The position numbers and the translations under genes are program-made. From Flammeovirgaceae bacterium (GTDB taxonomy: Bacteria; Bacteroidota; Bacteroidia; Cytophagales; Cyclobacteriaceae), in the NCBI GenBank assembly GCA_023251155.1, contig JAHEZH010000004.1, positions 15,306 to 79,305 of the forward strand: DNA of 64,000 bases. Direction: 5' to 3'. Positions 13,009-30,484 of this stretch are shown here, one piece after another. The notes under the pieces are model-generated. The model was not told the DNA's origin. It made no database searches and was given only the letters and a program-made list of their open reading frames with translations. Positions within the stretch are counted from its first letter, which is position 1, and every line of letters starts with the position of its first letter.

Positions 13009-13042
13009 GCTGCTTTTGTTTTGTATCAATCGTTATTGATGA

Positions 13043-13085: not shown

Positions 13086-13123
13086 ATTTATTTCCACAAA
13101 ATTTCATCTTCAAGCTCAGTAAA

Positions 13124-13199: not shown

Positions 13200-13206
13200 G
13201 ATGTTA

Positions 13207-13359: not shown

Positions 13360-13365
13360 CTTTTT

Positions 13366-13675: not shown

Positions 13676-13678
13676 CTA

Positions 13679-13780: not shown

Positions 13781-13788
13781 CAATTATT

Positions 13789-13924: not shown

Positions 13925-13944
13925 TTTTTCAAAGAACATTTTTG

Positions 13945-14148: not shown

Positions 14149-14158
14149 TTTTCAAAAA

Positions 14159-14183
14159 CCTCCTCTTCCATCTGAAGAGGAGG
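14159..14183 (-). terminator. Terminator after Ro60
   Basis: CCTCCTCTTC/GAAGAGGAGG (10 bp, 5-nt loop) eight bases after the Ro60 stop, followed by TTTTTG on the minus strand. The RNA array begins ten bases further on, so read-through or processing would release the array. Confidence 0.75.
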
Positions 14184-14190
14184 GCATCAT

Positions 14191-15711
14191 CTACAATTCT
14201 ATCTTTTCAATTTCAGCGAGTGCGTTCCCGCCTTCTTCCAATGCCGATAGTACATCGAAAATCTTATCCGACCATCCCGCTATCAAGTACACCCCATCGT
14301 TGCGCACATCGATAGGTGTAGTTCCATAGCCTGCCAGGTCAAACAAATACAACTTTGCCTTTGGAACTATCTTTCGATATTGTTTCCATAAAGAAGCAAT
14401 GTTGTCCTGCACAGCATTATCTGCACTGTTCCATAACTGACAATCCGTGAACATCATGATCTTATCCACCACCTTTTTCCGATTAATCAGATCTTTCACT
14501 ACCAGGTATCCGTTAGTTGAATAACCTACTTCACCTTCGCGGCTGTAAAACTCCTGCACGTTGGCAAGAATATTCTTACGCGACACGTTGATGATTTTCC
14601 AGGTATCGCCAAACATACCCGTCTGCACATAATCGCAGCGCGATTGCAACAGCATACCCAACATCAAACCGATATCGTAGTTCAGTATCTTGCTCTTCGC
14701 GGAAATGGCTTTCTGCATCGAACCAGAAACATCGCAGGCAATCATCACCGAAGTATCTTTTCCAAAGCCACGGATGTTCATCGCGCTTTGCTCTACTGCT
14801 TGTTCCAATGCATCCAATACCATTGCTACCGCACCAGAGTTCAATACTTTTACCTCACGGTAAGCAGCCAGAAAACGGAAAGGCAATTGCTTCGACTTCA
14901 TCACCGCATTTTTATCCGACAATACCGCACACACTTTAGTCATGGCTTCCCTGGAAACTTCCGCCTCAATAATGTTGCGCAGGTTTCGCATCAACGCCAT
15001 ATACCCCAATGCTCCGTTCAGGATCAGTTCCTCCCACTTGACACGGAAAGCCGCCTGTTTCTCCTGCTCACCGGCAAACTTGTTCTGGCCTAACATCGAC
15101 AACTCGGTCTCCCAGGTATAAGGCACCTGCAATTCATCTTTGGCAATCTTGTTGAACACCACCTGTTGCGCTTCATTCACGGCTTTGGGGTGAACCAGAA
15201 ACAATGCATCCTTCAATCTGATTTCCGCATCACGGTTATATTTTGCAAACTGATATTCATCAAAGCGATTAAATGCTTCCGCTAAACCACGTTGTATCTG
15301 CTTCGAGAGCTTATTTAACTTCTTGGTTTCTTTACGGTCGTTGGCCAATTGATAATACGCCAGCAACTCCGTGATTTCATCTGCACGCTGTACTACCCCG
15401 TTCACTGCTTTGTTTACAATACCGTTTCCGGATTTTACTTTTGCCAGTTCAACCGCCAATACCAGAGGAATGCTTCGCATATACATTTTGTTACGCGCAT
15501 ACACTGCCAGTTGTGCTACGAAAGAAGGATCGTTCTGACCAATCAGCACACGGATGCGCTCCATCCGGTCGTTACCTGACTCATAGAACGTGTTGCTCAA
15601 TGAAGTAGTCACCACCGCACTGTAGAGTTCGGCACGTTTATCTACTGAAAAAGCGGTTGCTCCCTGGTAGTTGGTGACCGGTGTTGCCTTTTTAAATACA
15701 TTGAACTTCAT
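14191..15711 (-). CDS. Ro60/Rsr homologue: TROVE plus vWA domain protein
   Basis: Ring-shaped RNA chaperone that binds misfolded RNAs in its central hole and Y RNAs on its surface; in bacteria it works with PNPase and in RNA stress. The N-terminal two thirds is the TROVE HEAT-like ring (RIRVLIGQNDPSFVAQLAVY, MRSIPLVLAVELA). The C-terminal vWA domain has the MIDAS motif DVSGSM near residue 325. I start at 15711 (MKFNVFKKATP) rather than the track's 15810, because the extra 33 codons run through the promoter/operator at 15734 and are not family-like; this gives 506 aa, the usual length. The RNA array follows directly downstream on the same strand. Confidence 0.93.
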   Translation of the reverse strand: MKFNVFKKATPVTNYQGATAFSVDKRAELYSAVVTTSLSNTFYESGNDRMERIRVLIGQNDPSFVAQLAVYARNKMYMRSIPLVLAVELAKVKSGNGIVNKAVNGVVQRADEITELLAYYQLANDRKETKKLNKLSKQIQRGLAEAFNRFDEYQFAKYNRDAEIRLKDALFLVHPKAVNEAQQVVFNKIAKDELQVPYTWETELSMLGQNKFAGEQEKQAAFRVKWEELILNGALGYMALMRNLRNIIEAEVSREAMTKVCAVLSDKNAVMKSKQLPFRFLAAYREVKVLNSGAVAMVLDALEQAVEQSAMNIRGFGKDTSVMIACDVSGSMQKAISAKSKILNYDIGLMLGMLLQSRCDYVQTGMFGDTWKIINVSRKNILANVQEFYSREGEVGYSTNGYLVVKDLINRKKVVDKIMMFTDCQLWNSADNAVQDNIASLWKQYRKIVPKAKLYLFDLAGYGTTPIDVRNDGVYLIAGWSDKIFDVLSALEEGGNALAEIEKIEL

Positions 15712-15733
15712 AACGGTTTCGTTTAATTGATGA

Positions 15734-15776
15734 TTCAAAGGTGAACGGCCACTGCGCAGTCTTTTTGCGTAGTGAA
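15734..15776. promoter_or_regulatory. Island promoter/operator copy 3 (between Ro60 and the WYL gene)
   Basis: Same 43-base element as at 10434 and 13043, including the perfect palindrome ACTGCGCAGT at 15751-15760. The -7-like CACCTTTGA box faces Ro60, 22 bases upstream of its ATG. The element also lies 34 bases upstream of the WYL start, so the regulator could control itself. Confidence 0.78.
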
Positions 15777-15809
15777 TATTTTTTCGTTTTTTTCTGAAAA
15801 TGTTTTTCA

Positions 15810-17543
15810 ATGCCTGTCACCCGAAACGCCCTCGTTCGCTACCGTACCATCGACAACTGCCTGAGAAACAGGCAACGCAAATGGACGTTGGAAGATTTAA
15901 TCGATACGTGCTCGGAAGCACTCTATGAATATGAAGGCATAGATAAAGGAGTGAGCAGGCGATCCATACAAATGGACATTCAACTCATGCGAAGCGATAA
16001 GCTGGGTTATAATGCCCCCATTGTTGTGCTGGAAAAGAAGTACTACACTTACGAAGATCCGGACTATTCCATCACCAACATTCCATTGACCGACCAGGAT
16101 CTGGGCAAGCTCACCGAAGTAGTAGAGATACTGCGACAGTTCAAAGGCTTCAGTCATTTTCAGGACCTGAGCGGGATGGTGCAACGACTGGAAAACAAAA
16201 TCCATTCTGCAAAAACACAACAGGAACCCATCATTGACTTTGAGAGGAACGACCATCTCAAAGGATTAGAGCATATTGAAACTCTCTATCAAACGATCAT
16301 CAATAAAAAGGCCATTGAACTTTGCTATCAGTCGTTTAAGGCACGGACCTCCAACACCTTTACTTTTCATCCTTATTATCTCAAGGAATACCGCAACCGC
16401 TGGTTTGTGATTGGTATCAAAAAGAAGAACACACCTGTCATGAACCTGGCGCTTGACCGGATCATCAGTATCACAGAAACGTCAGTAAAGTATCAGCCAC
16501 GAGAAAATTTCACCATCTCTTCATTATTGAATAATGTGATCGGTGTTTCTGTAAACACGGAAGGGACTACTGAGCACGTAGTGTTTATGGCCGATTATCA
16601 TACTGCTCCTTACATCCTTACCAAACCCTTGCATCACTCACAACAATTAGTAGAGAAGCGGCAGGACGGAATCGTTTTTTCCATTGATGTACAGCTCAAT
16701 TTTGAACTGGAACGTGAGTTGCTTGGCTTTGGTGACCGAATTAAAGTAATAGCCCCGGATAGACTAAAACGCAATCTGAGAGAAATATTTTCCAATGCCG
16801 TTGATCTTTACCAGCACGAATTCAGTACTTCCAGCTTGCAGAACAACCTGCAAAAACTGAAGCACAAAGGTTTTATGATGCTGAATCATCTCTACCTGAA
16901 GAAAGAAGTGAACCAAATAAAACTGGCTGTTCATCAACATTTGCGATCAACCGGACAGCCGCCCGATACACATGCTGTGCGTTACCTGCTTAATGAAGTT
17001 CCTTCGCTCAGGAAAATGATATTTAACACTAACCTGCTACAGCTTCTTCAGCGGATCGATTCCAGATTATTTTTAACCAAAGCCATTTACTTTGATAAGA
17101 CACCGGAAGCCAACTGGTACGTTACCTGGCATCAGGACATTATTATCAATGTAAAAGAAAAAATAGAAACAGAAGGCTTCACCGGCTGGACGAAGAAAGC
17201 AGGAGTTCATGGCGTATGCCCTCCGGATGAAATATTAACCAATACGATTACTGTCCGTATTCATCTGGACGATGCGAATGAACATAATGGTGCGTTGAAA
17301 GTCATTCCGGGGTCACATCAAAAGAAGCTGAGCGATGAAGAAATCAGTGTCATCGCTCAGAATAGTTTTTCACAAACATGCCAGGTAAGTGCCGGATGTA
17401 TTCACGTGATGAAACCTTTGCTCCTGCATTCCTCTTCGAAGGCAACCAATACTTCGCACAGGAGAGTGATTCATCTGGAGTTTAATACGATGGAACTGCC
17501 CAATGGCCTGGAATGGGCCGAGAGATTGGAGTTGAATAAATAG
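15810..17543 (+). CDS. WYL-domain transcriptional regulator fused to a PhyH-like 2OG-Fe(II) dioxygenase
   Basis: Residues about 1-85 form a winged helix (WTLEDLIDTCSEAL, SRRSIQMDIQLMR); about 160-325 hold a WYL/WCX region (IELCYQSF, HPYYLKEYRNRWFVIG). WYL domains bind nucleic-acid or nucleotide ligands and switch defence and damage genes. From about 345 the sequence turns into a phytanoyl-CoA-dioxygenase-like fold: WHQD iron-binding HxD near 450, LKVIPGSHQ near 495 and distal HSSSKATNTSHRR near 535, with the iron ligands intact. I know of no characterised WYL-PhyH fusion. Divergent from Ro60 over the shared operator, it is the best candidate regulator of the island. Confidence 0.85.
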   Translation: MPVTRNALVRYRTIDNCLRNRQRKWTLEDLIDTCSEALYEYEGIDKGVSRRSIQMDIQLMRSDKLGYNAPIVVLEKKYYTYEDPDYSITNIPLTDQDLGKLTEVVEILRQFKGFSHFQDLSGMVQRLENKIHSAKTQQEPIIDFERNDHLKGLEHIETLYQTIINKKAIELCYQSFKARTSNTFTFHPYYLKEYRNRWFVIGIKKKNTPVMNLALDRIISITETSVKYQPRENFTISSLLNNVIGVSVNTEGTTEHVVFMADYHTAPYILTKPLHHSQQLVEKRQDGIVFSIDVQLNFELERELLGFGDRIKVIAPDRLKRNLREIFSNAVDLYQHEFSTSSLQNNLQKLKHKGFMMLNHLYLKKEVNQIKLAVHQHLRSTGQPPDTHAVRYLLNEVPSLRKMIFNTNLLQLLQRIDSRLFLTKAIYFDKTPEANWYVTWHQDIIINVKEKIETEGFTGWTKKAGVHGVCPPDEILTNTITVRIHLDDANEHNGALKVIPGSHQKKLSDEEISVIAQNSFSQTCQVSAGCIHVMKPLLLHSSSKATNTSHRRVIHLEFNTMELPNGLEWAERLELNK

Positions 17544-17585
17544 AAAGCGCTTGACGTTTAGACAAACACTTTCTATTTGCAACAT

Positions 17586-18689
17586 TTACCGCACTGCATA
17601 TTCCACCTCGTGTGCTTCACTAAGCAATGGTATCTCCAGCTTACTGAGTAGCCGTGATAACACCTCGTTGGGAACCACTTGCTCACGCTCCCTGTTTTGC
17701 TTCAGCCAATCCTTGTAAGGAACTTCCACATAAACAATTTTGACCCGTGCCTTATACGAAGTAAACAGATCGATCCACTGGGTTCGCAGCTGCCGTGTGA
17801 TGTTGGTTGCATTCCACACAAAAGGCTGCCCTTTCCTTAAAAAGAACTTGGCCTGCTCCTTCGCCTGCTGCACGGCCCAGCCCGTAGCGGAGGCATCATC
17901 CGGTTTGAGGTGGTGCACTCTGCGAATAGCATCCAGGCTTACCACTTCCCAACCGGGATAATGCTTTTGCAGGTACGTGTCCTTACCCATGCCGGGCAAC
18001 CCGGAAAGCATGATCACTTCACTTTTCAGATCATCAAACGGAACATAATCAGGTGATGCGTCTTCCTTTTGAAAGTAATTGAAACGCGATAATGCAGACG
18101 GAAAAGTCCGTGCTTCCTTCCAGCACTGCTGCTCTTCACAATAGGCCGCAAAGAAATCGATACGATCAAGCAATTCATTCTGATCAGCACAAATTCTTCC
18201 CACTACATCGGCCCTGGCCAGGTCAACAAGTAATCGCATATCGGTACGAAGAGCCGCTTCCAGTAATGTCTTCTTCGGATCTGTTTTCTCCATCAGCCAC
18301 AGCGGTAATCCATGATGCCGTACTAATGAAGCAATCTGCTCACGCACATAAAACGAAGTTGGAATTTCCTGGTATAAGATTCTACGCGCGGTGTATTCGC
18401 CTTTGCGCGCATGTCCTCGTGAGGTAATTCTCCCATCGTCTTCCAGAACAGTAGTTGATCTTTTCTCCACATCGTGCAGTAAGGCAGCTGCCCATAAAAT
18501 CTCCTTAGCCTGCAATTCATACGAAGCAGAAATCCGCTGAGCTTCCTTCAGTACCATTTGCGTATGTGTCGCCACATCTCCTTCTGCATGATGGAGAGCA
18601 TCCTGTGGCACCTCACGCATGTCAGCCACCCAGCGGAATGTTTTCTCCAGGTGGCTCCATTCTTTATTTTGTATCAATGACCAATTCAT
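17586..18689 (-). CDS. HD-Pnk: HD phosphoesterase fused to 5'-OH polynucleotide kinase
   Basis: RNA end-healing enzyme. The N-terminal HD domain (HAEGDVATHTQMVL near 40, ALLHDVEKR near 70, HHGLPLW near 120) removes 2',3'-cyclic or 2'/3' phosphates. The C-terminal P-loop kinase (GLPGMGKDTYL near 233, SLDAIRR, NATNITR) phosphorylates 5'-OH ends. Length 367 aa and domain order match the characterised Runella HD-Pnk. It lies 18 bases after the RNA ligase gene, so healing and sealing are co-transcribed. This pathway makes 3'-OH/5'-P ends, the opposite choice to RtcB sealing. Confidence 0.92.
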   Translation of the reverse strand: MNWSLIQNKEWSHLEKTFRWVADMREVPQDALHHAEGDVATHTQMVLKEAQRISASYELQAKEILWAAALLHDVEKRSTTVLEDDGRITSRGHARKGEYTARRILYQEIPTSFYVREQIASLVRHHGLPLWLMEKTDPKKTLLEAALRTDMRLLVDLARADVVGRICADQNELLDRIDFFAAYCEEQQCWKEARTFPSALSRFNYFQKEDASPDYVPFDDLKSEVIMLSGLPGMGKDTYLQKHYPGWEVVSLDAIRRVHHLKPDDASATGWAVQQAKEQAKFFLRKGQPFVWNATNITRQLRTQWIDLFTSYKARVKIVYVEVPYKDWLKQNREREQVVPNEVLSRLLSKLEIPLLSEAHEVEYAVR

Positions 18690-18707
18690 AAAATCAAATT
18701 TTAAAAT

Positions 18708-19403
18708 TTAAACCTGTGGATATTCCCACGTCAGCTTTGCCCTGCGCCAGTGGCGTGTCCAATGCTCGTCTGTTTTCACGTGACCTGCGCGCACGTACTT
18801 AAAAACATGCCTGGCAAAATCATCAGTAGAATACTCACCTGCATTGCGGCTTACTATACCTTCACGCGTGCAGGGCTGTTGGGAAAGCACATCATACGAA
18901 TCCAATCCACTGGGCTGCTGTACCAAGTCAAGTACCTGCTGCCGGAAAACAGCTTCCTCTTTCGGGATCACCATAGCTAACTCCGGCACTACAGGGAGGT
19001 CAAACAAGTTCGCATAAAATTTCACTTCCTCCCAGCCTAACCACATATCATTGCTTCTTACGGCAAACACAAAGTAATGATGCTCCAGTTTCCGGTATTC
19101 AATAGAATGAACCGCATACAGATTCTCTCCAAAGATTTCAATATCTCCTAAATCATTCTTCAGCAATTCCCACCGCTGCCGGATTTCTTTGGTCCATGCC
19201 GATACGGTAGGTGCTGCATGCGATCTGGCAAACACGCCGTAGCGGCTCAGACAATTGTTCTCGCCATCCAGCTTTTCCGTATGCACAATGGCACTGATCT
19301 TCTTTACATCATTCCAATAGTCGCGATTGATCCGGTCGTCACTGGTGGTGCCGGGCGAAAAGGGATAATGGTACGTACGTCCATATTTTCGTGATATACT
19401 CAT
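18708..19403 (-). CDS. ATP-dependent RNA ligase (Rnl/PF09414 type)
   Basis: A 231-aa nucleotidyltransferase ligase. Motif I TEKLDGENN near residue 42 carries the adenylated Lys; motif III is EIFGENLYAVHSIEY near 92; motif IV REGIVSRN near 180; motif V VFKYVRAGH near 200. It seals 3'-OH to 5'-P ends and pairs with the downstream HD-Pnk. There is no C-terminal accessory domain. It is the third ligase in the island, besides two RtcBs. Confidence 0.88.
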   Translation of the reverse strand: MSISRKYGRTYHYPFSPGTTSDDRINRDYWNDVKKISAIVHTEKLDGENNCLSRYGVFARSHAAPTVSAWTKEIRQRWELLKNDLGDIEIFGENLYAVHSIEYRKLEHHYFVFAVRSNDMWLGWEEVKFYANLFDLPVVPELAMVIPKEEAVFRQQVLDLVQQPSGLDSYDVLSQQPCTREGIVSRNAGEYSTDDFARHVFKYVRAGHVKTDEHWTRHWRRAKLTWEYPQV

Positions 19404-19674
19404 CGTAGTAAATGTTAATGTGGAATAATGAATGAAGCCGGGAGATCGTACTCCAACGATTTACTCATCCATTATCAGATAAATTTAAATGCGGTTACTT
19501 CCCGCGGCGATCACCTCACTGGCATACTCTTCCCCAATCACAACGGATTACTTTTAAGATAGTAAGCATTTTTAAGAAGGAGTAAGCCCGAACATGTTGC
19601 GCTTCTCCGGAAACCGGGAAGGACTGATGTGATCCTATGATATTAAAAGATGAGCATTTCTTAAATCCCTCTGT
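19404..19674 (-). other. Intergenic gap with a possible gene remnant
   Basis: No intact ORF. On the minus strand a stretch around 19490-19640 reads SGLLLLKNAYYLKSNPL, stops, and one frame over continues VIGEEYASEVIAAGSNRI before a stop. A single base change or shift would join them, suggesting the tail of a decayed gene. I do not recognise the family. Confidence 0.25.
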
Positions 19675-20514
19675 TTAAAGGGTGAAACTTATTTTATGAA
19701 GACAAAGATAACGTCTCGTGCACAGAAACGAAAGGAGGAAGAATAGGTTACAAAAAAAAGAAACCCCAGTCTCATGGGGTTTCTTGTATTCAACATTCAT
19801 AATACGGTCGGGCCAATGTTCATGAAGAACATCAGAGAAGGATACATTCCTTAAAGGATTGTCAAAAATCTTCCTTCTTTCCCATCGATAAGAACAATCT
19901 AAAATTTTCCATAACCGAGGACGAAGATGATGTGTGACAAACAAACGGCTGATCTCCCCTACTCGTCTCTCATAATGTATATTCTTTACCTGAAACTTAG
20001 TGATCATGTTAGGTTTAATCTGGAGAACAAATCGCCACGGCTCTGTAAACAAAAATACTCTTTCAACTCTTCCTTTATCATGCACGAGAGATTCATAAAA
20101 AAGCTCACGCTCGGCATCAGTAAATTTCTTGCCATAGAACTCCCTTTCTGATAACTTCCTCAGCAGTTGCTCTCGGACAACATATACCTTTTTACCAAAT
20201 CGTCTTCGCTTCTTTTTAAAATCCTTCCTCGAACTCCATTGAGTTGTATTGATCTTATCCAACACAGTCTGATATAAGGCTGCCTTCTTTTCTCTCTTTA
20301 CATCGCTGCGCAACACAAAAAGCCGATTCCATCCCTTTTGATAGGGCGGCTTTAAATCAATCCATTCCTGAGAACGAATGCGCTTTACAATCTCTACTTC
20401 TTCATCATATAATCTGCGTAACATCTTATCATGCGCTTCAATGGCTGATCGTCTTCTTCTCCGATAAGATCTAAATCTGCCATGCTGGATATACTCGCTA
20501 TCTGCCCGATTCAT
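19675..20514 (-). CDS. Unknown highly basic protein downstream of the second RtcB
   Basis: A 279-aa protein dense in Arg/Lys (SYRRRRRS near residue 20, KKKRRRFGKK near 95) with no recognised domain; the charge suggests RNA binding. I start at 20514, four bases after the RtcB2 stop, rather than at 20541, which would overlap RtcB. The last 37 or so codons run through a perfect terminator hairpin and its T-tract (19760-19783), so the original protein probably ended earlier and the present tail (FFCNLFFLLSFLCT) may be an artefact of a lost stop or a frameshift. Confidence 0.65.
   Translation of the reverse strand: MNRADSEYIQHGRFRSYRRRRRSAIEAHDKMLRRLYDEEVEIVKRIRSQEWIDLKPPYQKGWNRLFVLRSDVKREKKAALYQTVLDKINTTQWSSRKDFKKKRRRFGKKVYVVREQLLRKLSEREFYGKKFTDAERELFYESLVHDKGRVERVFLFTEPWRFVLQIKPNMITKFQVKNIHYERRVGEISRLFVTHHLRPRLWKILDCSYRWERRKIFDNPLRNVSFSDVLHEHWPDRIMNVEYKKPHETGVSFFCNLFFLLSFLCTRRYLCLHKISFTL
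19760..19783 (-). terminator. Intrinsic terminator inside the annotated 3' end of the basic protein ORF
   Basis: GAAACCCCA/TGGGGTTTC, 9-bp perfect stem with a 6-nt loop, followed by a run of T on the minus strand. It terminates the RtcB2 operon. Confidence 0.8.
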
Positions 20515-20518
20515 AACT

Positions 20519-21928
20519 TTAATCTTTAGCCATCCGAACAATCTTCGGATGGAATTTTCCTTCTGTTGCGACCAGCGTTCCCTGGCTTTTCATTACTGCT
20601 TCGATGTCTTTGTAGGCCATCGGAGCTTCTTCCGGGCTTCCGCCAATAAGTGTTACTTTCTCCGACTGTAAGAGTTTCTTCATCGCGCTTACCGTAGTCG
20701 ACTCTTTTGCTTTCAGACGCGACATCTTTCTGCCCGCGCCATGAGCGGCCGAGTTCAGCGACAACTCATTACCCAATCCACGCACAATAAAACCTGGCGC
20801 AGTCATGCTTCCGGGAATGATTCCATATACCTCCTTTGCAGCAGGCGTAGCTCCTTTGCGGTGAACGATGTATTCCTTTCCATCACTCAATGTTTCTTTC
20901 CATGCAAAGTTGTGATGGTTCTCTACCACACGAAGCACTTCTGCACCCAATGCACGGCAGATGTTTCCATGAATGCGATCGTGACATGCTTTGGCATATT
21001 CACCTGCCAGGTTCATGGAGAGCCAGTACTCCTGACCTTCGGCACTCTCCATCGTTAACCACGCCAGCTGCTTTGCTTCACGCGGCAATTTGCAGGTGTT
21101 CATCGCGATGTTGGTATAATGCTGCGCAATGTTTGCTCCCAGGCTTCGTGAGCCGGAGTGCGAAAGCAATGCGGCATAGTTAGCAGCAGGAAGTTGAAAG
21201 GTATTCCCTTCCGCTAATTCAACGATACCGAACTCCACAAAGTGATTACCCGAGCCTGAACTCCCCAGTTGCCTCACCGACTTTCCATGCAGTCGTCTCA
21301 GCAATTCCGTTTGTTGAAAGTGCGGATGATCCAGCACCTCATGCTCCTGGTGGAACTCCAGTCCGCCATCATTACCAAAATGCGTATAGTCCTGTAGCAC
21401 TTTCCTCAACGCATAAGCATTATGTTCGACATAGCTCGCCGGCAGATCAAGAATACTCAACGCCATACGGCAACCGATGTCCATCCCTACACCATACGGA
21501 ATCACGGCATTCTCAGCAGCCAGCACGCCACCAATAGGAATACCATACCCCTGGTGTGCATCCGGCATCAGAGCGCCATACACTGCCACCGGCAATCGCA
21601 TGGCCATCTCCATTTGCCTGATTGCGTTGCCTTCGATGTGCTTGTTACCAAACACTTCAAAATGTTTTTCCTCGTGTTCTAATTCATAACTTAATGAAGA
21701 TGCTTTGTCTTCGGTTTTATTGGTTAGTTTATAAGCCAGCGTTCCTAATACTTCATGATTGAAATACAATTCCGGCTCGCTCAGCACATGTGTTAATACT
21801 GATATTTTTTCTTCGATGGATGAATGCTTAAAGCCCCGGTTTATGCTATTCATAGCGAGACTGATCGCAACATCGGACGAATAGCCAATGAGACGCACGT
21901 CCCGGCTATTCAATTTTTGATTGCCCAT
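20519..21928 (-). CDS. rtcB: RtcB-type RNA ligase (second paralogue)
   Basis: A 469-aa paralogue of the ligase at 9007, with all motifs kept: DAHQGYGIPIGG, GVGMDIGCRM, GSGNHFVEFG, SHSGSRSLG, ENHHNFAW, HRKGATPAAKE and AAHGAGRKMSR with the guanylate-accepting His. The N-terminal 100 residues differ strongly from paralogue 1, which hints at different RNA specificity. It heads a two-gene operon with the basic protein and lacks the 43-base operator, so it may be expressed under other conditions. Confidence 0.94.
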   Translation of the reverse strand: MGNQKLNSRDVRLIGYSSDVAISLAMNSINRGFKHSSIEEKISVLTHVLSEPELYFNHEVLGTLAYKLTNKTEDKASSLSYELEHEEKHFEVFGNKHIEGNAIRQMEMAMRLPVAVYGALMPDAHQGYGIPIGGVLAAENAVIPYGVGMDIGCRMALSILDLPASYVEHNAYALRKVLQDYTHFGNDGGLEFHQEHEVLDHPHFQQTELLRRLHGKSVRQLGSSGSGNHFVEFGIVELAEGNTFQLPAANYAALLSHSGSRSLGANIAQHYTNIAMNTCKLPREAKQLAWLTMESAEGQEYWLSMNLAGEYAKACHDRIHGNICRALGAEVLRVVENHHNFAWKETLSDGKEYIVHRKGATPAAKEVYGIIPGSMTAPGFIVRGLGNELSLNSAAHGAGRKMSRLKAKESTTVSAMKKLLQSEKVTLIGGSPEEAPMAYKDIEAVMKSQGTLVATEGKFHPKIVRMAKD

Positions 21929-22265
21929 AACGACTTTTTATCAGGCATCCGAAGTGATCCCACTGAATCGCATGGCTGTTTTATTTTACACAATACCATC
22001 CATGCTTGCTAAGTGAATAAACACAAAGCAAATAGCCGATCACTCCTGTTGCCAGGTTGATTTTTTAATTATTTAATTTTTTGAATGTAAGCAGCTGATC
22101 CGGTAAGAATTTTACCGTAGCTGGTTATTTGGGGATATGTAATAGTAATACCAACATAGCTTTCCTCTGATAGAGTGTTTACAGTTCAAGAGGTGAAATG
22201 CATAACAAAGATAAGCGTCCTTTTTTCATTCTCCACTACAGCGAAGGAAAATTAATTGACAAGAG
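21929..22265. other. Gap between rtcB2 and the dehydrogenase gene
   Basis: A/T-rich and without an ORF. It contains a CGGTAA-GAATT-TTACCG inverted repeat near 22100 and the rtcB2 leader. No copy of the island operator is present. Confidence 0.4.
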
Positions 22266-23135
22266 CTAATTTGGATTGAGTCTTCTTAAATGACTGATCA
22301 GTAAAGTCACATCTTTATCACCACCTTGTGCGGCGATGATTTCTTTAAAATGATGTTGAATAATGGTTCCCAAAGGCAGCGTAGTATGATTCCGTGCTGC
22401 CGCCTCCAGCGCCAGGCGTAGATCTTTACTGGCCAGACTTGTTTTAAATCCATTCGGGTTATCATTCTCCTGAACAATCAGCCCACCATACGTTTTTATC
22501 ACAGGAGCGCCAAACACGGTGGAGGTCATCGTATCCAGAAAGGTCTGCTTATCGATACCTGACTTCTCTGCCATCAGCATCACTTCACTTAGCATCTCCG
22601 TTATCACAAAGATCATGTAGTTCATCATCAGCTTCACGGTATGTGCGATTGCCGGATCTTCACCATAGTCAAACACGCGCTGGCTCATCGCTGCCAGTAG
22701 CGTTTGTGCTTTCTCCTTTGCTTCTGCCTTACCTGACACTAAAATAAAGAGCAGCTTTGCTTCTGCCGCAGGCGGGCGGCCCAATACGGGTGCGCTTATA
22801 TAATAGAGTTGTTGCGCCTCAAATTTCGCTGCCAGTTCTGTTGATGTTGCCGCGCCTATGGTGCTCATGGACACATGAATACTTCCTTTCTTCATCGCCA
22901 CCACAAGTTTATCAGACACCTCGCTGACGGCATGATCATCACTCAGCATAGTGACGACTATAGCAGCTTCGCTCACCGCTTCTTCCACCGTGGCAAATAC
23001 TGTAGCTCCAAGTGCTTCAATTGACTTTGCCTTGCCTGCCGACCGGTTATAGGCATGAACAGTAAATCCAGCTTTAATACTATTGGTGGCCATAGGCAAA
23101 CCCATGTTGCCCAGCCCGATAAATGCGATGATCAT
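22266..23135 (-). CDS. NAD(P)-dependent beta-hydroxyacid dehydrogenase family protein
   Basis: Rossmann fold at the N-terminus with IGLGNMGLPMA, then STIGAATSTELAAKFE in the place of the family's substrate motif, and a helical C-terminal domain with KLMMNYMIF containing the catalytic Lys. It belongs with 3-hydroxyisobutyrate dehydrogenase, glyoxylate/succinic-semialdehyde reductases and imine reductases; the substrate is not predictable. I start at 23135, since the 13 codons before it are hydrophobic and precede the first beta strand. It sits between the repair island and the retron operon with no visible link. Confidence 0.85.
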   Translation of the reverse strand: MIIAFIGLGNMGLPMATNSIKAGFTVHAYNRSAGKAKSIEALGATVFATVEEAVSEAAIVVTMLSDDHAVSEVSDKLVVAMKKGSIHVSMSTIGAATSTELAAKFEAQQLYYISAPVLGRPPAAEAKLLFILVSGKAEAKEKAQTLLAAMSQRVFDYGEDPAIAHTVKLMMNYMIFVITEMLSEVMLMAEKSGIDKQTFLDTMTSTVFGAPVIKTYGGLIVQENDNPNGFKTSLASKDLRLALEAAARNHTTLPLGTIIQHHFKEIIAAQGGDKDVTLLISHLRRLNPN

Positions 23136-23275
23136 TATAAAAAATTTAACTCTGGTTACGAACAAAAGTAGCAAGTAATTATATTACTGATTATCAATTA
23201 TCTCGATGATTTAAAAAAGAATTCGTTGTGGGTTCAGATAATATATGGTAGTTTGAAATTATAAATTGTACTGCC

Positions 23276-26200
23276 TTGCGAATAGTTAAACAAATCAAAC
23301 TTTATTTTCAGGAAGGAACTTCCGACAAGGTATATGAAATTGATTTATGCGAATCGGGAGACGGCTTTCTGGTCAACTTCCGCTACGGAAGAAGAGGTGC
23401 GGCCCTCAAAGACGGAACCAAAACGATATTTCCTGTTGAGCTAGCCGAAGCTGAAAAAGTATTTCATGCGCTGGAGCAGGAGAAAAGAAAGAAAGGATAT
23501 GTCGCTGCTGGTGAAACAGCAATAATCACTTCTTCCGTTCCGTCACCCACTGCGGGAACGGACAAGCGGAAAAAAGCAATCGTTAAATTGCTTAAAGCCG
23601 CGGCTGCCGGAGACGAGCACGAGAGCTGGAAATTATCGCGTATGATCTGGCGCGCTGGCGATTTAAAAATCAGCGAAGCCATTCCTCATATTGTTAAAGT
23701 AGCGGATGCTTCTGATCCTTTTAATATCTATTCCGTCATCTGGGCTATTGCACGATGCGGATCGGTCAATCACATTCCTTTTTTGCAAGACCTTCAAAAG
23801 AAGGGTGGGCTGCCGGTGCACACGCAGCAATTGATCACAGAGGCGTTATTAAAGCTGACAGAAGGAAAAGAAAAAGAAGTGCTTCTGGAAACCATCACAA
23901 CACTTCTTCCGGCTCCGCTTCGTAAACATATTATAGATAAAGACTACACTGCAGTTGAGCACCAGTTACGCGAGTATTTATTTGTGATGAAGGCCGCCTT
24001 CAATGATTACCTGATCGGCATCTATCAATTATCAAGGCACGACATCGCCCTGCACGAAGTCTTTATTCGTGTACTGAACGACATTCCTCTTAGCTTCAAT
24101 TACTTTAAATACATCCGCCAGATTTTCAAAACGGCTGAAATGCTGGAAGATTATGCTGCGTACGGGATTATCGCCAAAAATGTAGAGAAGCAGGCATCTA
24201 ACTATAAGAGTTCCTCATGGATGAATGCCGATCATAAAAAGAAGCAGGCGTTCTCTAATCGCACCAAGGTGTATCTCACCAACCGTGTATTGCGCTCGTT
24301 ACAAAATTATGGCGAAGCAAACGATTCATTGTATGTAGAACTGGCTTCCGAAATCATTTTGGCCTTTGACGATACTAAAGATCTGACTGCACCGTATCAG
24401 ACTTCAGAAGTTTCTTACAAATACAACTCAGCTACGCGACAACATACGCGCGAAGAAAAAATCACTTACTTCGACAGCTATAGTCACTTTCAGGCTTTCA
24501 ATTTTATTCTGATTAAGAATAGCATACGTTACGAAAACAAAAATGGAAGCTGGGTGCGGTCTGCATCTTATGTGCCTGCTACTACACAGGCACGGGAAGA
24601 AGCGTTTCCTCACTTATGGAATAAAGCTGCGGAACAGGTAATTGAATTATTGTCCTTCAGTAAATCGCTTCGTGTACATGAATTTGCACTGAAGGTCTTC
24701 ATTGCCAATCCGGAATTTGAAAAACAAATAGAAATCAGTCATGTTATTCACTTTCTCCAGACCACCTTTTCCACCACCCAGCAACTTGGTCTGGAACTAG
24801 CCAGGAAAAAATACGATCGCAATTCGCCGCACAAGCAGTTGTTGATTGCATTGCTCGACAATTCATTGGAGGAAGCGCGCAAACAGGCAGAACAATGGAT
24901 AGGTGATCATCACCATGCACTGCTCGAAGATGCCGAATTCATTGCCTCACTGGTGAAAATGAAAAGAGCAGAAGCGCATGCCTGGCTACGCGGCTTCCTC
25001 GCGGTAACTTCCTTAAAAAAGGACCAGGCTGAAATAGCAATTGCAAAAATCATTGCGTTTGTTGTTTCGTTCGAAATTAAAACGGAGGACGATAGACGTT
25101 ATCTTGTTCAGTTATCTGACTCGCTGGTGCTGTTGTTTGGCGATCACCTGTCAGCCATCAGCCTCGATATCATTAAAGATCTCTTCCTGCATGCTTCTGC
25201 TGAGGTACATGCATTGGCAGGGAAAATTTTAATAAAGCATCGTATCAGCCCAGAGAAAATTCCTTCCGGGTTTCTCCAGATTCTGCTTCAATCGGAAAAC
25301 GCCAGCTCCCGTGGGCTAGGAATTGCTCTTTTAGGTAAGTTTCCTGAAGATGCACTATTAGAGAAAAAAGAAATGCTGGTCAGCTTTTGCCTTTCGCCTC
25401 TTGCCGATGTGCGCAATGCGGTGAAACCGATTATCTCACGGCTGACCAAAGTTTATCCTGAATTTGGAAAAGAGCTGGTCGATCTTTTTGTTCCGGCGTT
25501 CCTGATAAAAGAATCGTATGAAGGCGTACATGATGACTTGCTAAGCTTACTCTCTCACGAATTAAGTGATAGCCTTCACATTATTCCAAAAGAGCGTTCA
25601 TTGCTTTTATTGAACTCAAAGTATCGCACTTCCCAATTGATGGGACTTATTCTTTTAAAGAAGAACATCAAAGACGAAGAGTTAACAGTACCTGAATTAG
25701 TGAAGCTGGGCAGCAATGCACTGGAGGAAGTGAGACTATATAGCTGGAACTGTTTTAGAAAATATCCGGAAAAGATTAAATCGGCTAAAGATGAAGCATT
25801 AAAACTGACCGATTCCTATTGGGCAGATACCCGCCTGTTTGCTTTCGACTATTTTACAAACACTTTTACCGCAAGCGAATGGACTACCGATTTATTAGTA
25901 ATGCTGTGCGATAGCGTAAAAGAAGACGTTCAGGATTTTGGAAAAGCAATGATCACTCAATTCTTTGAAGCTGAAAATGGAACCGAATACTTATTAAAAC
26001 TAAGTCAGCATCCCAGTACCAAAGTACAACTGTTCACCACCGCCTACCTCGAAAACTATGCGTACGGAAAGCCGGACATCATTCAGCAGCTCAAACCTTA
26101 TTTCATCACGCTATTATCACACGTAAATAAAGGCAAAGCTGCGAAAGCAAGGGCTTTTGCTATCCTGAGAAAAGAAGCGTTGAAAAATGAAGAAACGGCA

Positions 26201-26356
26201 AGGATAGCGGCAGACATCTTCACCCGTGTCTCTGTTTCGATGGCCATTCATGAGAAAGCAGAATGCATTGCCGCACTTCGTGATATTCATAACACCTATG
26301 CATCGATAAGTTCACCGGTAATTAAAAAAGTGTATTCTGACTACAGCAAAGTATAA
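23276..26356 (+). CDS. WGR-domain protein with long HEAT/ARM-repeat array (retron-associated)
   Basis: Residues 8-75 are a WGR domain (KLYFQEGTSDKVYEID, FRYGRRG), a fold found in PARPs and in E. coli MolR/YehI that binds nucleic acid. The rest of the 1026 aa is helical repeats typical of HEAT/ARM scaffolds. The only in-frame start is TTG at 23276, since a stop lies 27 bases upstream. It overlaps nothing and is followed 2 bases later by the SWIM protein, then the retron. From memory, WGR/HEAT plus WHSWIM proteins are the accessory genes of one retron class (type XIII in the Mestre et al. scheme), which fits. Confidence 0.82.
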   Translation: MRIVKQIKLYFQEGTSDKVYEIDLCESGDGFLVNFRYGRRGAALKDGTKTIFPVELAEAEKVFHALEQEKRKKGYVAAGETAIITSSVPSPTAGTDKRKKAIVKLLKAAAAGDEHESWKLSRMIWRAGDLKISEAIPHIVKVADASDPFNIYSVIWAIARCGSVNHIPFLQDLQKKGGLPVHTQQLITEALLKLTEGKEKEVLLETITTLLPAPLRKHIIDKDYTAVEHQLREYLFVMKAAFNDYLIGIYQLSRHDIALHEVFIRVLNDIPLSFNYFKYIRQIFKTAEMLEDYAAYGIIAKNVEKQASNYKSSSWMNADHKKKQAFSNRTKVYLTNRVLRSLQNYGEANDSLYVELASEIILAFDDTKDLTAPYQTSEVSYKYNSATRQHTREEKITYFDSYSHFQAFNFILIKNSIRYENKNGSWVRSASYVPATTQAREEAFPHLWNKAAEQVIELLSFSKSLRVHEFALKVFIANPEFEKQIEISHVIHFLQTTFSTTQQLGLELARKKYDRNSPHKQLLIALLDNSLEEARKQAEQWIGDHHHALLEDAEFIASLVKMKRAEAHAWLRGFLAVTSLKKDQAEIAIAKIIAFVVSFEIKTEDDRRYLVQLSDSLVLLFGDHLSAISLDIIKDLFLHASAEVHALAGKILIKHRISPEKIPSGFLQILLQSENASSRGLGIALLGKFPEDALLEKKEMLVSFCLSPLADVRNAVKPIISRLTKVYPEFGKELVDLFVPAFLIKESYEGVHDDLLSLLSHELSDSLHIIPKERSLLLLNSKYRTSQLMGLILLKKNIKDEELTVPELVKLGSNALEEVRLYSWNCFRKYPEKIKSAKDEALKLTDSYWADTRLFAFDYFTNTFTASEWTTDLLVMLCDSVKEDVQDFGKAMITQFFEAENGTEYLLKLSQHPSTKVQLFTTAYLENYAYGKPDIIQQLKPYFITLLSHVNKGKAAKARAFAILRKEALKNEETARIAADIFTRVSVSMAIHEKAECIAALRDIHNTYASISSPVIKKVYSDYSKV

Positions 26357-26358
26357 GT

Positions 26359-27999
26359 ATGGAGTTCGATTATAAATTTAAAGGCGACACTACGGTGAAA
26401 AGCACCGCTCATGCCACCTCCATGAGCTTTGCCCCCGATGTATATCGTGAGCCTACTTATTTTTCAGGCTACCTTAATAAACACATCCCTTTCCGTGAAG
26501 CGATCTCCGCACTTCACGATATTGTGGTTTCTGATTTTCGCTTTAAACCAAAAGATAAATCAGATTATAAAGCATGGGCACAGCAGCAGGAAGACATCTG
26601 GCTGGCCGAATACCTGAAAGGCACTACTGAAGTTGAACAAAAACTGAAAGCCGTCCGCGAAGAACTAGCTGTCATTCAAAAGCAACGTAATGACCTAACA
26701 GCTCCTTACTATAAAGCAAGAAGTAAATACTTTGAGTTCCTTTATCATGACAACCGTGATGCCTGGTTTGTACTTGACCCCGTTATCACCATTCATCCGG
26801 ACGAATTATTTTTTGAATGCTTCAGCCAGGATGAATCTTCGTATGGGAAACTGGGATGTAGTCACAATGTATTCAATAAAGTAAGTGAGTTTAAATGCGG
26901 CACCACAAATATTGACTACTCCTCTGATCTGTATAATGAATTTCAAAAAATAAGAGAATACAAAGATACGCACTTCAATGTGGATCCATCCGGATTTGAA
27001 GTACAGACCGCAAATGAGGAAAATTATAAAGAAGTAAAGATTGATGTTCCCGCCAGCTGGGTCCGTGGATTTTTACAGGTAAGCTCGGCCATGTCTATCC
27101 CAGCTACCAGTTTTACACTCCACCCGATGGATGTGTATAATATCTGTTTTCTGTTACGCCGGCACAAAGAAAAGGAAGGACCACGATCCATTCGATGGAT
27201 ATTGAAACCAGGAGAACCGGTGCGGTTGATTTTTGAACCGTGGAACTATGAAATCAAATGTGGCCGTTCATTTTATGAAGGCACTGAAGCAAAGGAAATC
27301 CGCATCTGGGGAAGACGCAGATTATTATTGTTGGAAAGATTGATTCCGATAGCCAAACAATTTAAAGTAGTACTACTCGGCTCCGGCTTACCTTCTTTTT
27401 ATATCGCTGATCTGGGTGATTTGAGTTTCACATTAGGGCTTTCCGGCTGGACAGTAAACGACTGGTCGCGGTTAGGGAACTTTGATTTGCTTGCACCACG
27501 CGCTGAAGTAGATGCGATGTCGATGCAAAAAGTATATGCCGGACTGAAAGAGAACTGGGTGGAGAAAGCGGATCATCTGGCACTGCGACTCAATATGGAT
27601 AAAGGGACTGTGTTAGGTGCACTCTCTGCATTTACACAGGCAGGCAGAGTAATTTATGATATCAACAACGGATCATATCGCATCCGTGAATTGTCCCGCG
27701 AGTCACTTCCACTCGATGAACTTCGTTTCTCCAATCCAAGGGAAGAAAGCGCCAATCGTTTTGTGCTGACCAATAAAGTAAAAGTTGCCGTAGCGATAAG
27801 AGAAGGAAAGCAAGTACTGACCGGAACGGTGATGGATGCTTCTAAAGCGTATGAGCCTGAGTTAGTGATTGATAAAGACGATCGTGCTGTGAGTGGCAAA
27901 TGCACCTGTAACTTTTATAGTCAGAATAAAATGATGCAAGGACCATGTGAACACATGCTGGCGTTACGGATGATGATGCGGGAAAAACAAAAGCAGTAA
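26359..27999 (+). CDS. SWIM zinc-finger protein (WHSWIM-like, retron-associated)
   Basis: A 546-aa protein ending in the SWIM motif CxCxnCxH (GKCTCNF ... GPCEHML, about residues 515-537). Residues about 385-440 look like a winged helix (LALRLNMDKGTVLGALSAFTQAG). The start is two bases after the upstream stop, so both are co-translated. SWIM domains bind nucleic acids or proteins. Its place between a WGR/HEAT gene and a retron supports an effector or sensor role. Confidence 0.8.
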   Translation: MEFDYKFKGDTTVKSTAHATSMSFAPDVYREPTYFSGYLNKHIPFREAISALHDIVVSDFRFKPKDKSDYKAWAQQQEDIWLAEYLKGTTEVEQKLKAVREELAVIQKQRNDLTAPYYKARSKYFEFLYHDNRDAWFVLDPVITIHPDELFFECFSQDESSYGKLGCSHNVFNKVSEFKCGTTNIDYSSDLYNEFQKIREYKDTHFNVDPSGFEVQTANEENYKEVKIDVPASWVRGFLQVSSAMSIPATSFTLHPMDVYNICFLLRRHKEKEGPRSIRWILKPGEPVRLIFEPWNYEIKCGRSFYEGTEAKEIRIWGRRRLLLLERLIPIAKQFKVVLLGSGLPSFYIADLGDLSFTLGLSGWTVNDWSRLGNFDLLAPRAEVDAMSMQKVYAGLKENWVEKADHLALRLNMDKGTVLGALSAFTQAGRVIYDINNGSYRIRELSRESLPLDELRFSNPREESANRFVLTNKVKVAVAIREGKQVLTGTVMDASKAYEPELVIDKDDRAVSGKCTCNFYSQNKMMQGPCEHMLALRMMMREKQKQ

Positions 28000-28040
28000 T
28001 AAATTTTTGTAATCAGAATTAATAAAATTAGTTTTAACAC

Positions 28041-28262
28041 AGTAGCAGCAGAGGGTATTATGACTTGCAACCCGGGCGGTGGATCACCGTCCTTGTACAC
28101 AGCTTACTAACGCGCCACTGGCCCGTTCTTAACTGTGCGATCCTGCCACTACCCCGTCATTCCCGGTGCGAATTCTGGGAATTGGAATAACGGGGTAGTG
28201 GCGTCTCGCTGGAGTTGACCGATCCAGTCCTCCGAAAGACGAAGGATATCCTCGCTGCTACT
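28041..28262 (+). ncRNA. Retron msr-msd non-coding RNA
   Basis: Flanking inverted repeats a1 AGTAGCAGCAGAGG (28041-28054) and a2 CCTCGCTGCTACT (28250-28262) pair with one bulged base. The msr part has a stem GGGCGGTG-GAT-CACCGTCC (28074-28092). The msd part is a long hairpin GCCACTACCCCGT/ACGGGGTAGTGGC (13 bp), one mismatch, then ATTCC/GGAAT (28145-28202), with an inner AATTC-TGG-GAATT. A smaller CTGGA/TCCAG hairpin follows. The RT start is 13 bases after a2, the standard retron order. Confidence 0.85.
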
Positions 28263-28275
28263 TTTCATTTTACTT

Positions 28276-29787
28276 ATGGCCGGCTCACAAAACACACGTC
28301 AGCAACTTTACGATCGCATCAAAGCTTCCACCAAAGAAGCGGTGATACTGGAAGAGATGAAACGTCTCGGCTTCTGGAAATCAGAAGAGGGAATGCCTTC
28401 ACTACCCGAATTGATCATCGAGAAGGAGGCGGTATTGATCAAAGAGGTACGTGAATTAGTTGAGCAGCAGCGCAAATACAAAAACAAAGAAGAAGCACTC
28501 AAAGAAGTAAGAAAGCTACGATTAGAAAAATCAAAGCTTAAGCGCGAAGAAAACAAGAAAACAAGAAAACAGAAACGGGAAGAAAAAGCAGCACACTGGA
28601 AAGAGCGAAAAGAAAAAGACATTCTCTACTTAGGGGAAAAAGTATCGAAAGGGTTAAATAACAAAGAGAGTGATCTCGCAAAATTAACATCACTTCAGTT
28701 ACCCGTACTTCAAAATGCAGAAGACATTGCTGCAGCGATGGGTATTCCCGTAGGGCAGGTTCGTTTTCTCTCTTTTCACCGTATCGTAAGTAAGACGACA
28801 CACTACAGACACTTTTATATTCCTAAAAAGACCGGAGGCAAGCGTTTGATTTCCACCCCCATGCCACGACTGAAAAGTGCGCAATACTGGGTGCTGATAA
28901 ATGTGTTAGATAAAATTCTTACCCATGATGCTGCGCATGGCTTTGTAAAGAAGAGATCTATTGTATCAAATGCATTACCTCATGTAAAAGCGGAAGTAGT
29001 CATCAATATGGATCTTAAGGATTTCTTCCCTTCCATCAGTTATGTGCGAGTAAAAGGATTATTCCAGTCATTTGGTTATTCAGAACAAGTCGCCACTATT
29101 CTTGGGTTGATCTGTACCGAACCGGAATCAGACGAGATTGAATTGGATGGAGAAACGTATTTCGCTGCCAATGGAGAACGCTTCTTACCTCAGGGTGCCC
29201 CCACAAGTCCTGCTATTACCAACATCATTTGCCGTAAGCTGGATGTACGCCTTAAAGGCATTGCTTCGAAATTAAATTTCAATTACACGCGCTATGCCGA
29301 TGATCTTACTTTCTCGGCATCAGGTGAGAGTGCTGCCAGCACTAAAACACTTCTCGGCTTCGTAAAGAAAATAATCAAAGAAGAGAATCTGAACATTCAT
29401 CCTGATAAGCTACGGGTGCTAAGAAAAGGTGCCCGCAAAGAGGTGACCGGAATTGTGGTGAACGATAAGCCTTCGGTCAATGCAAAAGAGTTGGATCGTT
29501 TCCGGGCATTATTATTTCAAATTGAAAAAGACGGAATAGGAGGAAAGCATTGGAAGAATTCAAACAACCTGCTCGCCTCCATGAAAGGATACGCCAGCTT
29601 TGTGGCCATGGTAAATCCGGAGAAGGGAAATCCAATTAAGGAACGGGTCAATAAAATTCTGGCGGCCAATCAATTCACTCATGTAATCAAACATAAGTCC
29701 AAAGCAATGATCGCCAAGGATGCCGCGAAAAACACGAACACTGCTTCAACCAGCGAAGTAAAAAAACCGTGGTGGAAATTCTGGTAA
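28276..29787 (+). CDS. Retron reverse transcriptase with N-terminal coiled-coil extension
   Basis: Catalytic motif YADD at residues 340-343, MDLKDFFPS at 245-253, PQGAPTSPA at 305-313, and the two retron signatures NAxxH (NALPH, 232-236) and VTG (390-392). It uses the upstream msr-msd RNA as template and primer to make multicopy single-stranded DNA. At 503 aa it is about 150-180 aa longer than a typical retron RT; the surplus is mainly an N-terminal, Lys/Glu-rich coiled coil (about 20-135). Retrons act as anti-phage systems in which the DNA/RT complex restrains an effector. The effectors here are probably the WGR/HEAT and SWIM proteins upstream. Confidence 0.93.
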   Translation: MAGSQNTRQQLYDRIKASTKEAVILEEMKRLGFWKSEEGMPSLPELIIEKEAVLIKEVRELVEQQRKYKNKEEALKEVRKLRLEKSKLKREENKKTRKQKREEKAAHWKERKEKDILYLGEKVSKGLNNKESDLAKLTSLQLPVLQNAEDIAAAMGIPVGQVRFLSFHRIVSKTTHYRHFYIPKKTGGKRLISTPMPRLKSAQYWVLINVLDKILTHDAAHGFVKKRSIVSNALPHVKAEVVINMDLKDFFPSISYVRVKGLFQSFGYSEQVATILGLICTEPESDEIELDGETYFAANGERFLPQGAPTSPAITNIICRKLDVRLKGIASKLNFNYTRYADDLTFSASGESAASTKTLLGFVKKIIKEENLNIHPDKLRVLRKGARKEVTGIVVNDKPSVNAKELDRFRALLFQIEKDGIGGKHWKNSNNLLASMKGYASFVAMVNPEKGNPIKERVNKILAANQFTHVIKHKSKAMIAKDAAKNTNTASTSEVKKPWWKFW

Positions 29788-29794
29788 AAGAAGC

Positions 29795-30484
29795 TTAATT
29801 CACTTTACGCTGACGTTCCTTATGCAGTTCTCCCACTTTCTTGATCTGCCCTCCGGCATTGGCCACCGAGTCTTGCGATTTTTTATTCATGTCAATCTTG
29901 ATAAGCAAGGCAGCATGCTCCAGCTTATTGGCTTCCAGTAATTTCTCTAACCGGATTTTTTCTTTTTCGTTCGCTGCCAGCTTAAATGCAAGATCTTTAT
30001 CCTGGTTGACTAGCCGTTGTTGCTGCCGGGTGACGGCATCAGCCGCCTGCTGTGCTTCATCAATCTGTACCTGTATTTTGTCTTTATAGAATTTTACGCC
30101 AAAGCGATTGACAAAAGCTTCCAGGTCTTTGTAGACCACGTGTATGTCATTCACCGCCCACTCATTCTCCTTCAGTCCAATCCACACTTTCCCCTTCTTA
30201 TCACTTCCTGTAGCAGTAGCGTAAATGATTCCTTTAGCATAAGGTGTTCCCCCAACTACAGGTTCAGCGATGGTCATCACTTCTCCGTTGTTCTTTACTT
30301 TCCCCAGTTCTTTCAGGTATTTATTCCACGCTACGCTTACCTCGGCCAGGCTTGCATCCAGTTCCGTAGCATAGCCTTCGGTATTCTCGCCTTTTACTCG
30401 CTCCTGTTGTTTATTAACTGTTACGGTTTGAGCTTTGACAATAAATAATGATAAACAGAACAGGCTGATGATAACCTTCTTCAT
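29795..30484 (-). CDS. Secreted or periplasmic protein of unknown function
   Basis: A 229-aa protein with signal peptide MKKVIISLFCLSLFIVKAQ, a small globular part (about 25-135) and a coiled coil (about 135-215). It converges on the retron RT gene, 7 bases from its stop, and is therefore not in the retron operon. Family not recognised. Confidence 0.7.
   Translation of the reverse strand: MKKVIISLFCLSLFIVKAQTVTVNKQQERVKGENTEGYATELDASLAEVSVAWNKYLKELGKVKNNGEVMTIAEPVVGGTPYAKGIIYATATGSDKKGKVWIGLKENEWAVNDIHVVYKDLEAFVNRFGVKFYKDKIQVQIDEAQQAADAVTRQQQRLVNQDKDLAFKLAANEKEKIRLEKLLEANKLEHAALLIKIDMNKKSQDSVANAGGQIKKVGELHKERQRKVN

Follow-up and report, generated by a model that had tools for sequence, protein, structure and literature searches.

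A type XIII retron from a Flammeovirgaceae bacterium with a SWIM partner protein predicted to contain a sliding-clamp fold

Results

Organisation of the locus and assignment to type XIII

The DNA analysed here, referred to as the window, is a stretch of 64,000 nt from a Flammeovirgaceae bacterium (GCA_023251155.1, contig JAHEZH010000004.1, positions 15,306-79,305 of the forward strand). Positions 23276-29787 (+) of the window are a complete type XIII retron, in which the genes for a WGR-HEAT protein and a SWIM protein are followed by an msr-msd RNA and the gene for a retron reverse transcriptase (RT), all on the (+) strand:

23276..26356 (+): WGR-HEAT protein, 1026 aa (PADLOC WGR_XIII, 1086 bits over residues 1-1017)
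23312..23512 (+): WGR domain, residues 13-79 (Pfam PF05406; alignment)
26359..27999 (+): SWIM protein, 546 aa (PADLOC SWIM_XIII, 784 bits over residues 1-544; conserved C515, C517, C530 and H532)
26458..27453 (+): residues 34-365 of the SWIM protein, predicted to fold like the PCNA sliding clamp (Foldseek, VIA-align)
28041..28262 (+): msr-msd RNA (fold, covariance model, covariation)
28276..29787 (+): retron reverse transcriptase, 503 aa (PADLOC RT_XIII, 637 bits; Pfam RVT_1; tree)
29767..29784 (+): C-terminal aromatic tail PWWKFW (aromatic tails end most type XIII RTs)

The two protein genes upstream of the RNA had been described as lying 2 bases apart on the same strand, and this spacing is confirmed (WGR-HEAT stop at 26356, SWIM start at 26359). 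The initial annotation saw in the locus a complete retron of a class with HEAT and WHSWIM partners; by PADLOC this class is type XIII, all three protein matches cover nearly the whole model, and the next-best RT model reaches 310 bits. Its description as uncharacterised also agrees with the literature searched, which names type XIII retrons only in a PADLOC annotation of Variovorax. The locus is thus a further example of an already known retron type, and no difference was found that would place it outside type XIII. A PADLOC scan of neighbouring genes found no known defence genes beside the retron, and a Pfam scan of the genes at 19675-30484 found no bpMoxR ATPase, vWA or propeller genes.

A grouping of the RT with group II or DGR enzymes, which had been raised as the contrary outcome, was not found: retron profile models score 212-223 bits against 66 bits for the group II maturase model, and the nearest RTs among solved structures are those of retrons Ec86, Ec67, Kva2 and Ec78. 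In a tree of 42 RTs, composed of type XIII and other retron-like enzymes to the exclusion of group II and DGR enzymes, the window RT falls within a supported group of 25 members (98/91), with the other 17 retron-like RTs outside it. The 25 are labelled as belonging to seven phyla (Bacteroidota, Pseudomonadota, Cyanobacteriota, Verrucomicrobiota, Acidobacteriota, Planctomycetota and Candidatus Sigynarchaeota), labels which may err because several members are metagenome bins.

The msr-msd RNA

The RNA between the SWIM and RT genes folds with an energy of -104.8 kcal/mol (z -7.4), and none of 200 shuffled sequences folds as low. Its elements are:

28041..28059 (+): a1 arm, core 28041-28054 (fold)
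28064..28068 (+): conserved CTTGC (TTGC unchanged in all 22 loci)
28074..28092 (+): msr hairpin 1, 8 pairs (98.9% paired across 22 loci; 6 pairs with two-sided changes)
28117..28127 (+): 5' strand of P2, a long-range stem around the msd hairpin (covariation)
28145..28202 (+): msd hairpin, arms 28145-28157 and 28190-28202 with more pairs inside (fold)
28218..28228 (+): 3' strand of P2, preceded by a conserved GAGTTGA (covariation)
28245..28262 (+): a2 arm, core 28250-28262, preceded by a conserved ACGAAGG (fold)

Repeats of 13 pairs with one bulge had been noted for a1 and a2, and the predicted fold reproduces them: nine pairs between 28041-28049 and 28254-28262, a bulged A at 28050 and four GAGG/CCTC pairs, beyond which lie five weaker pairs. 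The msd stem, previously given as 18 bp, is real but its length was inexact, as 13 uninterrupted pairs are followed by 9 more beyond an internal loop.

When 22 loci were aligned from a1 to a2, four invariant or nearly invariant elements emerged, namely TTGC after a1, the small hairpin, GAGTTGA on the 3' side of the msd hairpin, and a CGAAG that precedes a2. From its position, G28067 within the CTTGC is the candidate branching G. The RNAalifold consensus of the 22 loci also yields P2, which encloses the msd hairpin and is missed by single-sequence folding; all 10 of its pairs show two-sided changes across the loci, and 8 of the 10 are standard pairs in the window. Overall, 92.4% of alignment cells pair, compared with 68.9% in shuffles, two-sided changes occur at 25 of 30 consensus pairs, and the covariation score is 0.661 against 0.225 in shuffles, a signal that is destroyed if the pairing partner is slid by 1-3 columns. 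The structure was derived from the same alignment, so the test somewhat favours it, and the margin is still wide.

A covariance model trained on the 22 loci, with the window among them, scores the window RNA at 169.8 bits and recovers the RNA in three loci outside the training set (L103, L105 and L246 in our numbering). No Rfam family matches the msr-msd RNA, the sole Rfam match in the window being a tRNA, and the covariation-backed model provides a means of finding type XIII RNAs, tandem copies included. Such copies, placed before or close to a single type XIII RT, were detected in L103 (12007-12472, -), L023 (1978-2490, +) and L102 (13151-13750, -); within each, the flanking parts are similar and the msd stems different. 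In two sets of close relatives whose RT genes are 93-94% identical in DNA sequence (L008/L010 and L013/L015/L016), the msd stem is altered at several paired positions simultaneously with the pairing kept, and in L008/L010 the RNA outside the stem is identical. To judge from these comparisons, the msd stem looks unusually fast-changing. The tetramer ACTA is enriched in the msd 5' arms of 25 type XIII RNAs (20 seen, 2.5 expected from shuffles), a count for which the arms were chosen by hand from RNAs related by descent.

The reverse transcriptase and its C-terminal tail

All three RT motifs named in the initial annotation were located (NAxxH at N232-H236, YADD at 340-343 and VTG at 390-392). The long N-terminal extension described there is likewise borne out, since the conserved core begins at about residue 135 and the extension is kept in relatives, which share 35-57% identity with the window RT.

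Beyond the conserved part, type XIII RTs continue into a linker, whose length varies, and finish with aromatic residues. Examples are PWWKFW (window and L014), QWWSLW (L008), NWWNIF (L057), DWWDIF (L103), EWWRLW (L020) and ISSFFKK (L059). The last eight residues of 21 RTs, a set that takes in those ending in transmembrane helices, contain 48 aromatics against a mean of 16 in shuffled extensions, and none of 5000 shuffles reached 48. Other retron-like RTs mostly end soon after the core, and no shared tail motif was found among them. The tail is a feature of the type XIII class and not of the window locus alone. Five RTs (L006, L011, L012, L019 and L246) end in predicted transmembrane helices, and four of these carry an internal WW motif before the helices (GWWQP in L006, DWWQP in L012 and L019, GWWSP in L246). 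The RTs of L009 and L061 have no aromatic tail, and docking can therefore not hinge on the tail in every case.

The tails resemble clamp-binding peptides, as judged from general PIP-box and bacterial clamp motifs. In 16 of the 21 RTs, compared with 1.8 in shuffles, a clamp-peptide-like pattern (a hydrophobic residue, any two, then two aromatic or aliphatic residues) is found among the last 12 residues; the pattern is permissive and was picked after the tails had been seen, so we treat the resemblance as a lead.

The partner proteins

The SWIM protein consists of a predicted clamp fold, a winged-helix region and a CxC...CxH SWIM zinc finger, and is 34-62% identical between the window and its relatives. 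Its AlphaFold model (pLDDT 74.6, with 20 relatives as input) was compared with the PDB by Foldseek, and the 50 best matches were all sliding clamps (PCNA, DnaN and 9-1-1; E-values 3e-9 to 5e-8). With VIA-align, the 50 best entries were all PCNAs (Z 20.7-21.8, on a scale where models without clear matches reach Z 7-8), headed by Sulfolobus PCNA (2izo_B; Z 21.8, 233 residues, 2.7 A), with model residues 34-364 and PCNA residues 1-244 spanned. PCNA is the ring that keeps DNA polymerase attached to DNA. The two clamp subdomains of the model are placed as in a PCNA monomer, 233 of 244 residues being aligned, and a helical hairpin (residues ~60-135) is inserted into the first.

A PDB sequence search with the SWIM profile returned nothing relevant. 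When the SWIM alignment was compared by hhalign with those of 22 PCNAs from archaea and 13 DnaNs from bacteria, the probability was 3% for PCNA and 0.2% for DnaN; PCNA against DnaN itself reached no more than 12% when the same small alignments were used, which makes this a weak test. As sequence profiles give no signal, the clamp assignment is one of predicted structure. On this footing residues 34-365 are predicted, with good support, to adopt the PCNA clamp fold; what we claim is the fold, and neither homology nor a ring function. The predicted fold would be a feature of SWIM_XIII proteins throughout the class and is apparently new: within the partial coverage of our literature search, no retron paper with a clamp-fold partner was found, the joint mentions of "retron" and "sliding clamp" are incidental by title and abstract, and nothing to the point treats SWIM, WGR, clamp and MoxR together.

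Of the three proteins, the WGR-HEAT protein shows the lowest conservation, with ~23-33% identity between the window protein and its relatives. Its start was called mechanically as a TTG codon, and relatives align from residue 1. The Pfam WGR domain is matched in the window protein (E 3e-5) and in 15 of 16 relatives, the W-G-R motif of the family being Y-G-R in the window. The AlphaFold model (pLDDT 87.3) has the WGR domain at the N-terminus and then a long solenoid of helical, HEAT-type repeats. A PDB search with the sequence profile returned only designed alpha-repeat and HEAT proteins and Foldseek only generic HEAT solenoids, matches too general for a specific function to be assigned. No enzyme domain was recognised; a Toprim_4 match of 13.8 bits, below the cut-off of 25, was disregarded.

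Relatives, distribution and neighbourhood

Nearly all members of the RT group with sufficient flanking DNA carry both partner genes, in one of two orders: WGR-SWIM-RNA-RT, as in the window, or RNA-RT-WGR-SWIM. A full type XIII retron also occurs on a 2.8-Mb plasmid record (Methylobacterium bullatum plasmid 1, L246, 1853-8389, with the RNA at 6722-6932), where the RT ends in membrane helices. Two exceptions are L022, which has neither partner, and L002 (Xanthocytophaga flavus, 6098-7654, +), where the RT stands behind a WGR-beta-propeller gene and a DUF58/vWA-like gene, there is no SWIM gene and the usual msr-msd RNA was not detected. The L002 RT is sister to the canonical RT of L105 (100/94), hence the partners have probably been replaced. 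In a Sigynarchaeota bin (L021, 7917-10166, +), the RT is divergent and type XIII-like, with a BRCT domain following it, and a SWIM gene lies alongside.

Relatives of the SWIM protein also occur without an RT. These are matched weakly by SWIM_XIII (at most 216 bits), come from Flavobacteria-like genomes of the same phylum and lie behind WGR proteins. In L119 (1181-10655, -), genes for WGR-DUF6493/DUF7824/DUF7825 and SWIM proteins head a bpX4-bpMoxR-bpX2-bpX0/bpX1 operon; other RT-less WGR-SWIM pairs, in Bacteroidota (L118, L120, L122 and L123), are near SPFH or Ro60 genes. From these few examples, a link between the type XIII partners and MoxR conflict systems appears plausible.

The distribution is patchy. 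WGR_XIII matches strongly in about 4 of 395 genomes of the class, and a search of 36 genomes from the window's own genus, some of them incomplete, gave no WGR-HEAT match. The gene directly downstream of the retron (29795-30484) is present in 37 of 40 same-genus genomes, with its neighbour at 30585 retained, and in several of these the place of the retron is taken by a gene homologous to that at 31498. This pattern fits a recent arrival of the retron in a variable slot. Among viral contigs no close type XIII RT was found (best 41%), so no phage-borne copy is claimed.

On its other side the retron adjoins an island of RNA-repair genes (6042-21928, mostly on the (-) strand), with an oxidoreductase gene between. 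The island encodes KptA, Thg1, an AAA_33 kinase, two RtcB proteins, an RNase-T exonuclease, an SPFH protein, Ro60 (TROVE and vWA), a WYL regulator-PhyH fusion, an HD and kinase protein, and a likely RNA ligase (18708-19403). Such a neighbourhood was rejected as a trait of the type XIII class, as the other loci have no such neighbours except RtcB in L012.

Discussion

A recognisable enzyme serves as the partner in several retron types. The literature searched offered no mechanism for type XIII, whose partners amount to two domain names, WGR/HEAT and SWIM; the predicted PCNA fold and the clamp-peptide-like tail turn this gap into testable statements.

Of several possible explanations we favour, as rather probable, an abortive-infection system in which the RT-msDNA complex restrains the clamp-fold protein and a WGR-HEAT scaffold, two proteins that would be suited to DNA, until this state is upset by phage replication. 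Abortive infection is an established function of several other retron types, and in other retrons toxic partners are kept in check by the RT-msDNA particle until the cell is infected (PMC12548924, PMC11555353). An anti-phage role of the type XIII retron, which we infer by analogy, is in keeping with its patchy presence, which is typical of defence genes. Also in its favour is the association of RT, WGR-HEAT and SWIM, kept across phyla and in two gene orders.

The process may be envisaged as follows. The RNA would be transcribed and the RT would prime at the G of the conserved CTTGC, with the msd as template for a branched RNA-DNA. The particle formed in this way would bind both partners from the same operon, the clamp-fold SWIM protein being docked at least partly through the aromatic C-terminal tail of the RT and the WGR-HEAT protein bridging nucleic acid and clamp protein, so that both partners would be held inactive in the resting state. 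A phage that changes either the msDNA or the replication fork would then release the partners to act on DNA, perhaps by clamping onto forks or the ends of DNA and halting replication, and the cell would stop before phage release. As neither partner contains a recognisable toxic enzyme, the killing step is a guess. A more specific version, which we regard as tentative, is that the SWIM protein forms a PCNA-like ring of its own on DNA, tethered by the RT-msDNA through the PIP-box-like tail; phage replication would free the ring, which would jam replication, and this clamp-derived effector would stem from WGR-SWIM systems that lack an RT and are related to bpMoxR conflict operons. If this is correct, SWIM proteins would be clamp-based immune effectors, and retrons would be linked to both WGR-SWIM operons and MoxR conflict operons.

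The tails can be read in another way, as membrane anchors of the same retron. The particle would then be held at the inner membrane, where the partners would act or from which they would be released. The five lineages whose RTs end in predicted transmembrane helices speak for this, as do the short tails of L007, L018, L059 and L060, which are basic and amphipathic. However, in L006, L012, L019 and L246 the internal WW occurs in addition to the helices, so that WW and membrane segment look like separate elements, and many of the tails with WW, such as NWWNIF, DWWDIF and QWWSLW, have an acidic or neutral character. Given that WW and helices are found together in four RTs, a pure membrane-anchor reading is not our first choice and we consider it doubtful.

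It is also conceivable that the tail binds a replication clamp of host or phage (DnaN or a phage clamp), so that the retron monitors the fork with the SWIM protein as decoy or competitor, and tails such as ISSFF, WWSLW and LKSLF do resemble the clamp-binding peptides of polymerases. The operon itself nevertheless supplies a dedicated partner with a clamp fold, which would be the simpler target, and the tails vary more than expected if all of them bound a common target like DnaN. We consider this option unlikely.

Slightly less likely again is a housekeeping or stress role, with the retron acting in a response to RNA or DNA damage and not in phage defence. The island genes for KptA, Thg1, two RtcB proteins, Ro60, SPFH, RNA ligase and kinase lie at 6-22 kb of the window, RT-less WGR-SWIM pairs in other Bacteroidota have SPFH or Ro60 genes nearby, and the WGR domain occurs in break sensors of the PARP type. 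Yet the retron is on the opposite strand to the island with an unrelated gene between, RNA-repair neighbours are missing from the other type XIII loci apart from the RtcB of L012, and the distribution is patchy. A decayed or silent locus, to which the TTG start codon of the WGR gene might point, is very improbable, as the three reading frames are intact and of full length and the RT motifs and RNA pairing are kept.

Comparison with known systems

With the type XIII retrons defined in PADLOC (WGR_XIII, SWIM_XIII, RT_XIII) the window locus shares the three proteins, their order and the RNA. Retrons Ec86, Ec67, Ec78, Eco8 and Kva2 have in common with it the RT core and motifs, the a1/a2 plan of the msr-msd RNA and the presence of partners in the operon, whereas NDT, TOPRIM, ATPase/HNH, TIR and protease partners are absent from the window retron, and type XIII RTs differ by ~135 extra N-terminal residues and by an aromatic or membrane C-terminal tail.

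The SWIM protein shares its predicted fold with the PCNA, DnaN and 9-1-1 clamps across a whole PCNA monomer. Unlike these clamps, it carries an inserted helical hairpin, a winged-helix region and a SWIM zinc finger, it gave no sequence-level signal in the profile comparison, and the retron operon contains no gene for an AAA+ loader.

A third comparison is with the MoxR-vWA-beta-propeller (bpMoxR) ternary conflict systems, which are named in Pfam and described in PMC7159879, a text in which neither "WGR" nor "SWIM" occurs. The type XIII retron itself differs from them in carrying no AAA+ ATPase, vWA or propeller genes. Points of contact are nevertheless provided by L119, where a WGR-DUF6493 protein and a distant SWIM_XIII relative directly precede bpX4, bpMoxR, bpX2 and bpX0/bpX1, and by L002, where a type XIII RT stands after a WGR-beta-propeller gene.
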